From Planktothrix sp. PCC 11201 (lineage in GTDB: Bacteria > Cyanobacteriota > Cyanobacteriia > Cyanobacteriales > Microcoleaceae), in contig NZ_LT797701.1 in assembly GCF_900009135.1 (NCBI RefSeq), forward strand, positions 472,524 to 536,523: DNA of 64,000 nt, written 5' to 3'. The notes beneath the pieces were generated by a model, which ran no database searches, had not been told where the DNA came from, and saw only the letters and a program-made list of their open reading frames with translations. Both the position numbers and the translations under genes were made by a program. Shown one piece after another: positions 45,965 to 50,275 of this stretch. The first letter of the stretch is position 1, and each line of letters opens with the position of its first letter.

Positions 45965-48900
45965 TTAGATATCTAAATCCGTCAAATTTAAGCGGGGAGC
46001 GTGGGTTTCGATGAACTCCCGACGGGGGGCCACCCGATCGCCCATTAATATAGTGAAAATCCGATCAGCTTCGGCAGCATCTTCCACTTCCACCCGTTTA
46101 ATCATCCGAGTTTCTGGGTTCATAGTAGTTGTCCAAAGTTGTTCGGGCATCATTTCCCCTAACCCTTTAAACCGTTGAATATTGTAGTTAGCATTGGCGG
46201 GTAGACTTCTCAAATGCTCCTGCAATTCTTGTTCATTGTAACAGTATTGATGGTTCCGTCCCCGTTCCACTTTGTACAGGGGAGGACAGGCAATATAAAT
46301 ATAGCCTTGATCCACTAATTCCCGTTGATAACGATAGAAAAAAGTGAGCAATAAAGTCCGAATATGGGCTCCATCAACGTCCGCGTCGGTATTATGACAG
46401 CAGAGTCCTCCGGTTCCACAAACAAAGTTTTCATCCCCATCAACGGAGAAGTCATAAACATACTCTCCGACTAATTCAATTTCCTCTGCCTTGACAACTT
46501 TTAATCCCATTAAATCTTCACTAATGGGTAAATAATCCATCGGTTTTTGAGTGGGAAGTTGTAGATAGGTGTTAAGTTTTTCTGCCCCTAAATGACGTTG
46601 CCAAATTAAACGACAACTTTCGAGTTGTTGTTTGCCACAAAGGGTCAGGGTATAGTAGGGATAACGGGTTTGAATTGGGGCTGTGTGATTCAATTGAGGT
46701 TGATGTTCACTGGTACTAGCAATTAATCCCAATTGTCCGAATAAATAGAGTAATCCATTCTTAATTGAATTGGAGTTAGTTGTCCAAGAAATATTCGCCT
46801 CACTGGTTGTTCCATCCCCTAAGAAATACCCCTCTAAAAAGGCAAGTTGTAAAGGTTCAGTCACCGAGAAAACCAGATCGGGAATTTGTTTTTCATGGGA
46901 TTTTTTTCCTAATCCCCAAGCCTGTAACAGTCGGGCAGCGACTACACTATTAAAGTAGAGTTTAATCCCCTGACTTTCGGGATCATTATAGCTGCGTGGT
47001 GTTTCCCCAAATACCTCTTGAATGGCTGCAATTAACTCAGGAATAAATCGCTCATCTTTTGTGCCTAAATTCAGGCTGACTTGATGTTTTGATAGGCTTC
47101 CTTCCGCCACATACCAACCCAAAAACCACATCAATTCTGAAGTAATGGGTAAATAGCGATCAAAGGCTTTATTCTGGTGGGCTTGAGGAACAATTTTTAG
47201 GTTATCCCCCAACTGAATTAACTCGCTGGGTGTGAAATATTCAATGGGTTTATAATTACTAACTTCTCGCCAACGGGCGTTTTTACTGCTGTCATCTTGA
47301 GTCAGGAGTTGATCAATTTTAGAGGGAAGGGTTTGGTAAACAATATTTTCGTTACCTCCAATTGTCTCTAAATAATCTAAGAAATTAGACAAAATGGGTC
47401 GATTAATTCCCCGTTCCCAGTGACTAATCGTAATCGGTTGTTTGACTCCAATAGCAGTGGCTAATTGTTTTTGAGTCATGCCTAATGCTTGACGTTGGGC
47501 AATTAATTCTTGCCATCCTTCGGCATCTAATTCAACCCGGGTTTCACTGAATAATTCCGGTTTGTCAACTTTGGCTAAAATTCGCCGACTGGCAATTTTA
47601 CGAACATCTTCTCCTTGTAAATATAAGGATTGAGTCACACCCGCTTCATAGAAGGTTCGGAGTAAATCAATCCGGGTTTGGGGTTCAGTTGAACGGGGTA
47701 AACGACGACTGGCAACTAACCAATCTCCGGGTTTAATTTCATTGCCTTTTTTGAGTTTAACTTCCCCATTTTCATACACAAAAACACTATGGGAAGATGT
47801 GACCTTAATTTGACGATTATAGCGAGTCGTCAGTTGATACATGGGTTCTTCATGCCCGTGACGAATTACGGCTTTAATCGGACGAAAACGGGTGGCATGG
47901 GTTACGGGATCAAAAGCAATCACTTGATAGCGTTCCGGGGTGCGTTTCCCTTCGATACACTCATCAATAAACTTGCCAATTTCTACAAATTCGGTTTTTC
48001 CGGTATCTTCCATTACTAGCGTGGGTTCATCACCCGCAACGCTCATAATTATGACTTTATGATAGCGCAACCCGGCGGCATCGAATTCTTCTCCCTTAAT
48101 TCCTAATCCTAATGCCGTAATTAAGGATTGAATTTCATTATTTTTGTAGATTTTGGCGTCATCGGTTTTCTCGATATTCAGGATTTTTCCGCGTAAAGGA
48201 AGAATGGCTTGGGTACGGCGATCGCGTCCTTGTTTGGCGCTATTATGCACAAATATACCCGCCGATAATGCGAAGTTATGACTATGGGGAACTTCAATAT
48301 CATAAACATCATGTCGTTCTTCTAACCATTCGATAGAAACGACCCGATGATTGTAGTTCCGAATAGCAGTTCTGGTGGCGACTTCATCTCCTTGAAAATA
48401 GCAATCGCAAAAGGTTTTAAAGGTCGGATCTTTTTGCGGTTTAAGAGAGTTTGAAGGGTTATATATTTGATAAAGTGAGGCTAGGGTTCGAGCATAATCG
48501 CTTTGATTTGATGCTTGATACTGAGATTCTAAACGCTCTTGATCTTCCCGTTGTTTTAATTGATAGGTATTAGCTAATACATGGGTATCAATCCATTGAT
48601 CAGAACCTGGATTCCAAACCTTTTGATTTCCCTTTAATTCCCCATTATTTTCTAAGTAATGAAACGGCATTAAGGAATCTTCTGGGGTTAATTCTGCGGC
48701 TGCTTTATAAGTACGATCACGCAACATAAACGGGTGATCGGGAGTACAAATCAGGGTTTCTCCATTATCTAAAGTTAATTTCACGACTTGGGCATTTTTC
48801 TTCGTGAGTCGTGCATTGGTGATGTGTTCAATGGCGATATTGCCACTTTGATTAATGGTGTAGCAAAAATGCTCTTTCCCCTCAGCCTGCTCATCAACAA

Positions 48901-50275
48901 TTTCTTTGATAGTTTTTTCTGATCCATCAGCAAGAGATATATAAGTAAAACTAAACAAACAACCGCCGGCGCTGTCCCCTTCGACTAAGAAAATCTCCGA
49001 TTCATGGGGATCTCGGGTACTACAATCGGCTAATTTACCTGGCAATGGAGAGGATTCTAAGACCGATTTCCGACGGACTAAATCCCGTGCTCGTCGAGCG
49101 GCTTCTGCGGCTTTAAAGGCTTGAATGGCTTTCTCAATGATCGCATCGGCAACCCCGGGATTAAATTCTAAATATTCGGTTAAGGCTTCCCCCACCAAGG
49201 AGTCAACAATTCCCCGAACTTCTGGATTTCCTAATCGGGTTTTGGTTTGTCCTTCAAATTCAGGGTCGGGAACTTTCGCAGAAATAACGGCGGTTAGACC
49301 TTCTCTAATATTTTCCCCGCCTAAATTTGCCTCGCCTTCTTTGAGTTTATTCCGTTTACGGGCGATCGCATTTAAAGTTCGAGTCAAAACGGTTTTTAAC
49401 CCTTCTAAATGGGTTCCCCCATCGATGGTTCTAATATTATTCGCAAAACCTAAAACCGTATCACTATAGGCATCGGTACACCACTGCAAAGCCACTTCTA
49501 TTTGAACATTACTCCGTTCTCCACAAGTATAAATAATATCTTCATGGAGGGGTTGTTTATCGTTGTTCATGTAGGCGATATACTCCCGAATTCCGCCTTC
49601 ATAACGGTAGGTTTCTATCCGGGGATTTTCGCGATTTAAGAGTTCTAAACGACTATCTGTCAGAGTAATTTTAACTCCCGCATTCAAATAGGCGAGTTCG
49701 CGTAAACGGGAGGCAATCGTATCACAATCAAACTCAATTCCGGTGGTAAAAATTGAAGTATCGGGTAAAAAGGAAACGGAAGTTCCGGTGCGGGCTTCTT
49801 TAATCGGTTTTGAGGTGAGTTCCGTGGCGGGAGTCCCCCGTTCAAAGCGTTGGGAATATTCTTTTTTATCCCGAAAAACCGTAACTTCTAACCATTCTGA
49901 TAAAGCGTTAACAACAGAAACCCCGACCCCATGTAAACCCCCCGAAACTTTATAACCGCCACCCCCAAATTTACCCCCGGCGTGGAGAACGGTTAAAACC
50001 GTTTCTAAAGCGGACTTTCCGGTTTTAGAATGGGTATCGACGGGGATACCGCGACCATCATCGGTGACGGTGACGGAACCATTGGCGTTGAAATCGATTT
50101 CGATGTGGGTGCAATAGCCAGCCAGCGCCTCATCGATCGCGTTATCTACAACCTCGTATACTAAATGGTGGAGTCCTCTTGGCCCTGTGGAACCAATGTA
50201 CATTCCGGGGCGTTTGCGAACGGCTTCCAAACCTTCAAGGACTTGAATTTGGTCGGCGCTGTAATTGCTGGTCAT
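45965..50275 (-). CDS. gyrB: DNA gyrase subunit B containing two inteins
   Basis: The 1436-aa frame encodes GyrB (ATPase subunit of gyrase, which supercoils DNA) interrupted by two inteins at residues 439-678 and 745-1295. Removal leaves 645 aa, the normal length. The extein carries the GHKL ATPase motifs ([27 protein letters not shown]) and the TOPRIM motifs EGDSAGG, cut by intein 1 before SAKQG, and TDADVDG, cut by intein 2. Both inteins sit in the catalytic TOPRIM region, so active gyrase needs both to splice. The start is typical ([10 protein letters not shown]). Confidence 0.95.
46391..48043 (-). mobile_element. GyrB intein 2, with HTH and LAGLIDADG endonuclease
   Basis: Residues 745-1295 (551 aa) form an intein between KVIIM and TDADVDG. 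It starts with Ser ([12 protein letters not shown]), has block [12 protein letters not shown] (about 823-833), LAGLIDADG motifs [10 protein letters not shown] (1051-1060) and [10 protein letters not shown] (1147-1156), block [15 protein letters not shown], and ends in CCHN with Thr as +1 residue. A 50-residue XRE-type helix-turn-helix (about 917-970) is embedded between the N-splicing block and the endonuclease. It is a full-length, apparently active homing intein. Confidence 0.92.
48242..48961 (-). mobile_element. GyrB intein 1, mini-intein
   Basis: Residues 439-678 (240 aa) form an intein between EGDSAGG and SAKQGRD, the insertion site of the Synechocystis GyrB intein, to which it is similar ([29 protein letters not shown]). 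Cys1, the block B His, terminal HN and Ser+1 are intact. No homing endonuclease is present; instead a linker of about 90 residues (about 540-640) lacks known motifs. Block A reads [13 protein letters not shown] where the usual form has CxxGDT. Confidence 0.92.

Follow-up and report, generated by a model that had tools for sequence, protein, structure and literature searches.

A single minus-strand frame of 1436 aa, running from 50275 down to 45965 (45965..50275 (-)), was found in a 64,000-nucleotide stretch of the Planktothrix sp. PCC 11201 genome (hereafter, the window) and scored 1042 bits against the gyrB model TIGR01059 (cut-off 882). The first-pass annotation of this DNA had described the frame as a gyrB gene carrying two inteins, and this was borne out by the domain models: Pfam Intein_splicing (PF14890) matched each intein alone, with 94.5 bits for the first one, intein a, and 61.7 bits for the second one, intein b (cut-off 35.8), and the NCBIfam models of intein N- and C-termini matched both. 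The frame was also checked for disruption and is open over its whole length, with no internal stops. Cutting it at both sites confirmed the lengths previously given for the inteins (240 and 551 aa) and left exteins of 438, 66, and 141 aa, which sum to the expected GyrB of 645 aa. The N-extein (48962..50275 (-), GyrB residues 1-438) ends in EGDSAGG and is followed by intein a (48242..48961 (-), frame residues 439-678), by a middle extein reading SAKQG...KVIIM (48044..48241 (-)), by intein b (46391..48043 (-), frame residues 745-1295), and by a C-extein that starts with TDADVDG and is closed by the stop codon (45965..46390 (-)). The boundaries EGDSAGG/SAKQG and KVIIM/TDADVDG on the translated frame are those proposed earlier, and the span then reported for the pair, 46391-48961, is bounded exactly by the last position of intein b and the first position of intein a. 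The insertions are not a matter of chance, because each site is naturally uninterrupted in some relatives. At third codon positions, the GC content was 0.30 and 0.33 in the inteins vs. 0.41-0.45 in the exteins, as expected of foreign inserts and also of relaxed codon choice.

Class 1 inteins start with Cys or Ser and have a block-B TxxH motif, a C-terminal His-Asn, and a nucleophile at position +1. Intein a shows Cys1, CTPDHPF, VHN, and a +1 Ser, and intein b shows Ser1, TSSH, CHN, and a +1 Thr. In intein b, a helix-turn-helix domain (HTH_3, PF01381, 32.6 bits, cut-off 23) occupies intein residues 182-226 (47366..47500 (-)) and precedes a LAGLIDADG homing-endonuclease domain at residues of about 298-504 (46532..47152 (-)), where two motifs with acidic residues (E314 and D410) and a two-repeat fold were recognized. 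In the predicted structure of this intein, both ends (residues 1-3 and 542-551) are of low confidence (pLDDT < 50).

Both inserts were said to split the TOPRIM core of GyrB, and they are indeed placed around its acidic motifs. We take the metal ligands of this core to be the acidic residues of EGDSAGG and TDADVDG (E424, D498, D500, and D502 in E. coli). With both inserts in place, the metal site cannot plausibly form, and activity should therefore need both splicing reactions. The assembly containing the window (5.99 Mb) is 99.7% complete, and the whole of it gave a single match to PF00986 and a single one to PF00204; no second GyrB or ParE-type gene was found with these two profiles. The presence of a single GyrB-type gene in such an assembly strengthens the case, and it is thus very probable that gyrase activity needs both splicings. 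According to the mechanism that we propose, gyrB would be translated as a 1436-aa precursor in which each intein would fold as a Hint (splicing) domain. The peptide bonds would be broken at the inteins' own ends (Cys1 in a, Ser1 in b), the upstream extein would be handed to the +1 Ser (a) or the +1 Thr (b), and the terminal Asn would cyclise to release the intein. The product would be the 645-aa GyrB, whose TOPRIM metal site would be formed only after both splicings, the unspliced protein being presumably inactive.

Intein a belongs to the cyanobacterial GyrB-a allele, as indicated by its homology to the inteins of relatives and by an identical insertion site; at this site, it shares 89% identity with the copy of P. 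paucivesiculata and 77% with that of P. rubescens. Full-size related alleles measure 434-437 aa and most contain the HNH motif. The stretch that holds HRHHVDF...NNNP in the 434-aa Planktothrix alleles is missing from the window copy, and an alignment of nine Planktothrix alleles placed the point of the missing HNH domain after intein residue 136 (48553..48554 (-)). Of these nine copies, four are 434 aa long with the motif and five are HNH-less (240, 241, 237, 257, and 251 aa). In other lineages, copies that are endonuclease-less or shortened measure 153, 167, 174, 200, 256, 306, and 334 aa, of which those of 256 and 306 aa retain an HxHH pattern, and a Kamptonema copy (G008) has the full length of 435 aa without the HRHH pattern. 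The occurrence of such copies across lineages points to a repeated loss of HNH, and the endonuclease was thus probably lost from site-a inteins several times.

The window copy is in addition a recombinant. Diagnostic sites were those at which the two closest HNH-less copies (G045 and G047) differ from all four HNH-bearing ones, and three more sites agreeing with neither type were left out of the count. Before intein column 183, the window copy was of the HNH-bearing type at all 34 diagnostic sites (30 within the intein and four in the adjoining 13 nt of upstream extein) and never of the HNH-less one; after this column, the HNH-less type was found at 56 of 60 sites and the HNH-bearing type at four. 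None of 20,000 label shuffles, performed with equal freedom to place the switch, matched the observed pattern. It follows that the window allele recombined inside intein a, in the interval 48658..48781 (-): the first ~180 nt of the intein come from an HNH-bearing-type allele, and the remainder from an HNH-less-type allele.

Intein b is more uniform in size. Among 28 complete copies from named genomes (Cyanobacteriota and Chloroflexota), 26 are exactly 551 aa long, and the block-B residues T82 and H85 are invariant in 25 of 25 sequences. The penultimate His is replaced by Lys in 4 of 25 relatives, the L040 copy has an eroded endonuclease (E314R and D410E, 538 aa), and the L037 copy carries D410N; some copies may thus not be fully active. 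The dN/dS ratios were computed by the NG86 method within three groups (Planktothrix, Microcoleus, and Laspinema, given in this order), saturated pairs between genera being left out. They were 0.092, 0.114, and 0.091 for the LAGLIDADG part, 0.106, 0.108, and 0.093 for the linker with the HTH, 0.050, 0.066, and 0.036 for the Hint part, and 0.039, 0.028, and 0.041 for the flanking extein (196 codons). These low values show strong purifying selection on intein b and indicate that its endonuclease is constrained rather than decaying, except in L040 and perhaps in L037.

The distribution of both inteins was determined in two samples. In the family sample (60 genomes, 59 with a match and 58 classifiable), 18 genomes had neither intein, 27 had a only, two had b only, 11 had both, and one could not be classified. 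Within Planktothrix, a was present in all ten genomes, and b was present in six, empty in three, and not classifiable in one. The allele states of the genus are a alone, an HNH-bearing a with b, and a mini-intein a with b, to which the family adds b alone and the doubly empty gene; naturally empty b sites are thus found in close relatives. In the class sample (388 cyanobacterial genomes, 383 with a match and 378 classifiable), states were counted by hand: 36 genomes had a only, four had b only, seven had both, and 331 had neither. The genomes left out were five whose gyrB frames are broken (G275, G280, G286, G310, and G379) and five matchless ones (G141, G166, G193, G321, and G430). These states were derived from the number of matches and the best E-value, the matches being listed down to about E 4e-98, and 20 genomes were re-examined with coordinates; 10 of the 36 a-only assignments are backed by coordinates and 26 by E-value, and those of the 331 genomes without insertion that lie beyond about E 4e-98 were scored by match number and E-value alone. 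By this hand count, 11 of the 378 classifiable genomes have b and 43 have a, in agreement with the initial impression that the second site is the less usual one.

The history of intein b does not follow that of its host gene. The extein and b trees, built from 29 rows (28 named loci plus the window; the L032 extein is incomplete), reject each other. The mean b distance was 2.0 times the extein distance within cyanobacteria (325 pairs) and 0.61 times the extein distance between cyanobacteria and Chloroflexota (78 pairs). When 26 rows were compared with the window, identities in cyanobacteria outside Planktothrix were 65-75% for b and 78-88% for the extein, those of a Ktedonobacteria MAG were 63% and 55%, and those of Herpetosiphon 56% and 55%. 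From this pattern and the conflicting trees, b appears to be a mobile element, and its distribution is best explained by transfer between Cyanobacteriota and Chloroflexota, although differences in rate between the phyla could account for part of the distance ratio, and MAGs make up two of the three Chloroflexota rows. Among Planktothrix genomes, the ratio of b to extein distance was 1.86 (three pairs), so that the divergence of b is about as expected from the host gene and would suit recent homing in the genus but also a prolonged residence there. No phage or plasmid vehicle was found in the phage, plasmid, and IMG/VR collections. The sole tblastn match of b among 50,697 phage records was to Brochothrix phage A9 (22.6% identity over 38%), which is present in two records, one of them annotating the match as ribonucleotide reductase. 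There was none among 72,556 plasmid records, and a scan of IMG/VR with 60 pattern matches gave two distant relatives (25-26%), located elsewhere or in different proteins.

These data led us to consider it highly likely that both insertions are splicing inteins, b homing with its LAGLIDADG endonuclease and a being an endonuclease-less mosaic. At the DNA level, a and b would be homing elements that spread separately. The endonuclease of b, with its added HTH, would cut a b-less gyrB at the TDADVDG codons, and repair would copy the intein in; the empty sites and the incongruent trees lend indirect support to this predicted cutting of the intein-less allele. The HNH-less a would persist through splicing and through vertical or ordinary recombinational inheritance.

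Alternatively, the HNH-less a may hitch-hike on b, if the repair tract that follows a b cut of a doubly empty gyrB brings a along. The two sites are only 198 bp apart in coding DNA, and double alleles were in excess in the class sample (seven seen vs. about 1.25 expected, Fisher 3.6e-5). However, this excess was obtained from hand counts that ignore kinship, and the family sample, where kinship was likewise ignored, gave no significant excess (Fisher 0.18). In Chloroflexota, too, b can be accompanied by an HNH-less a (L039, 153 aa; L066, 174 aa), and among six Herpetosiphon-type genomes this combination was observed in one (L066), site a being empty in the other five; L066 is thus a hint of a riding on b, but suggestive only. 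The loss of HNH could not be attributed to the presence of b, as it was no commoner in double-allele (3/11) than in single-a (5/23) family genomes (Fisher p 1.0); loss was here judged by size, mostly open-frame length, with G008 counted as not lost, the single-a genomes G044, G055, G057, and G058 (cut or broken frames) and the unclassified G050 being excluded. Furthermore, when trees were built for 14 genes that hold both inteins (the window gene and 13 named loci, out of 14 that have an intein at a; L038, whose b is truncated by a contig end, was excluded), those of a and b rejected each other (AU 4.3e-7 and 4.4e-5), and the extein tree of the same rows conflicted with both. These results argue for a mostly separate movement of a and b and against their co-homing as a rule, and a study on Haloferax describes co-homing as inefficient (PMC10643990). 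Hitch-hiking of a on b is therefore unlikely.

One or both inteins might also be domesticated regulators whose conditional splicing (in response to redox, metal, or temperature) gates gyrase, and this would account for their position in the active site of an essential enzyme. Conditional splicing has reportedly been observed for some inteins (PMC5790916), the TOPRIM core contains both sites, and a, although endonuclease-less in several copies, is present in all ten Planktothrix genomes sampled; but the loss of a mini-intein demands an exact deletion, which would be enough alone to keep it in place. The strong purifying selection on the Hint part of b (dN/dS 0.04-0.07) is equally expected for any intein of an essential gene. 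Finally, b is missing from three of nine judged Planktothrix genomes and a from 20 of 58 family genomes, so that neither intein is required, and we regard a gating role as very doubtful. Group I or group II introns, that are generally known to favour highly conserved codons too, or an assembly artefact have a negligible probability: the frame is open throughout, both inserts contain intein domain families, no Rfam family reached its gathering threshold in the window segment 45500-50800, and gyrB alleles of the same kind occur in separately deposited Planktothrix genomes, among them those of P. paucivesiculata PCC 9631 and P. rubescens PCC7821. The sequence thus refutes the intron reading, and two splicing inteins, one of them homing, remain the preferred explanation.

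The long-known cyanobacterial GyrB inteins presumably occupy site a, with which the +1 Ser agrees, and we take the Ssp GyrB intein to be a 435-aa intein with an HNH domain inserted at EGDSAGG/SAKQ. PI-PkoII resides in an archaeal DNA polymerase; it (PDB 2cw7) and related LAGLIDADG inteins thus differ from b in host protein and insertion site, and b, unlike them, has a Pfam HTH_3 domain between its splicing and endonuclease parts. A cyanobacterial gyrB intein allele is listed for many species, including Synechocystis PCC 6803 (PMC4071816), and the Ssp GyrB C-intein, an intein also used elsewhere (PMC3620165), is followed by a serine (PMC2794532), as intein a is here. Both statements fit the match of the first site with the Synechocystis intein that the first-pass annotation proposed. 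In contrast to the full-size Ssp GyrB kind, the window copy of a has 240 aa, lacks HNH, and combines two allele types. A GyrB mini-intein of Desulfonema ishimotonii is described as a single intein of 123 aa (PMC6390638), unlike the double allele found here. Another parallel is the MCM-a/MCM-d pair of Haloferax, with two close, separately mobile sites in one replication gene, several allele states in relatives, and double alleles above expectation, these being over-represented in Haloferacales (PMC10643990). It differs from the present case, which involves a bacterial gyrB, a member of an HNH-type lineage that is here endonuclease-less, and a LAGLIDADG intein. The same study names as open the question of whether an endonuclease-less intein can ride on its neighbour.

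Literature searches were limited to open-licence sources, InBase and subscription journals being outside their scope. Among the papers listed, judged mostly by title and opening of the abstract, they gave no description of a GyrB intein at site b and nothing on Herpetosiphon inteins or a double-intein gyrase, and none of those retrieved for inteins and Planktothrix concerned GyrB; PMC2814812 does not mention GyrB or gyrase, and PMC3359363 does so in its reference list only. NCBIfam had no separate model for an intein-bearing GyrB among 25 of the 28 families listed for the frame. This absence is a weak sign of novelty, and some of the 61 archaeal intein-containing GyrB sequences put aside in one study could sit at site b (PMC9348778). 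The kind of intein and the cyanobacterial GyrB site a are known, and the b lineage and the double allele are new members of this kind. It is quite unlikely that b represents an undescribed site held by one still-homing, HTH-bearing LAGLIDADG lineage that crosses Cyanobacteriota and Chloroflexota and also mobilises the endonuclease-less a, forming a two-element homing unit in the gyrase active site. If so, Planktothrix, having a in both forms and b sites that are filled in some alleles and empty in others, would be a natural test bed for such a unit.

The Planktothrix gyrB gene provides a bacterial case in which an HNH-less a adjoins a LAGLIDADG-bearing b, with several allele states in the genus and the family, and the window holds a mini-intein recombined from endonuclease-bearing and endonuclease-less alleles. 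Intein b would clearly exemplify transfer between phyla within an essential gene, and, for gyrase biology, the active site of one cyanobacterial GyrB should depend on two splicings. Further inteins were observed in replication genes of the same genome, with two in DnaB, one in DnaE, and one in DnaX (proteins named from their frames).

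The last 48 nt of the extein preceding site b (KVIIM/TDADVDG), at positions 48044–48091 of the window, showed 92% identity both to the gyrB allele of genome G049, which is empty at site b, and to that of G045, which carries the intein, and were nearer to these two than to P. rubescens (81%) or P. paucivesiculata (83%). This pattern of nucleotide identity is a sign of local recombination at site b.

Variation was also seen at site a (EGDSAGG/SAKQG) in other lineages. A Herpetosiphon-type gyrB (L066, genome G708) contains a 174-aa intein a, lacking a homing endonuclease, next to intein b, and site a was empty in five close relatives of this genome. 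In two Oscillatoria MAGs (loci L023 and L025), site a is directly preceded by EGDSASG instead of EGDSAGG; in one of them the site holds an intein of 334 aa from which the HNH pattern is missing, and in the other it is empty. Furthermore, five assemblies of cyanobacteria (G275, G280, G286, G310, and G379) have a gyrB that appeared to be disrupted by stop codons or frame shifts, perhaps due to sequencing errors.

A distant relative of intein b, starting with Ser1, was found in a GyrB-like protein encoded by a 319,857-base IMG/VR viral contig (L047:3341-6607). Its boundaries, set by reading of the sequence, place it at a third GyrB position, the ATPase motif EICDN/SIDEAMAG, distinct from both a and b. 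Another distant relative of b lies in a protein of the family relative G008 (L017:1084-3363) resembling a UDP-sugar epimerase/decarboxylase, and an intein was observed on a viral contig (L048:2501-5326) in a protein resembling QueC-type 7-cyano-7-deazaguanine synthase, both proteins being assigned by reading.

Finally, the window's own genome carries further inteins on contigs C28, C6, and C11 (L081, L082, and L083), in proteins that were also identified by reading: DnaB has two, one of them short, and both DnaE and DnaX have a single intein. With gyrB included, at least six inteins are distributed across four replication proteins of this genome.
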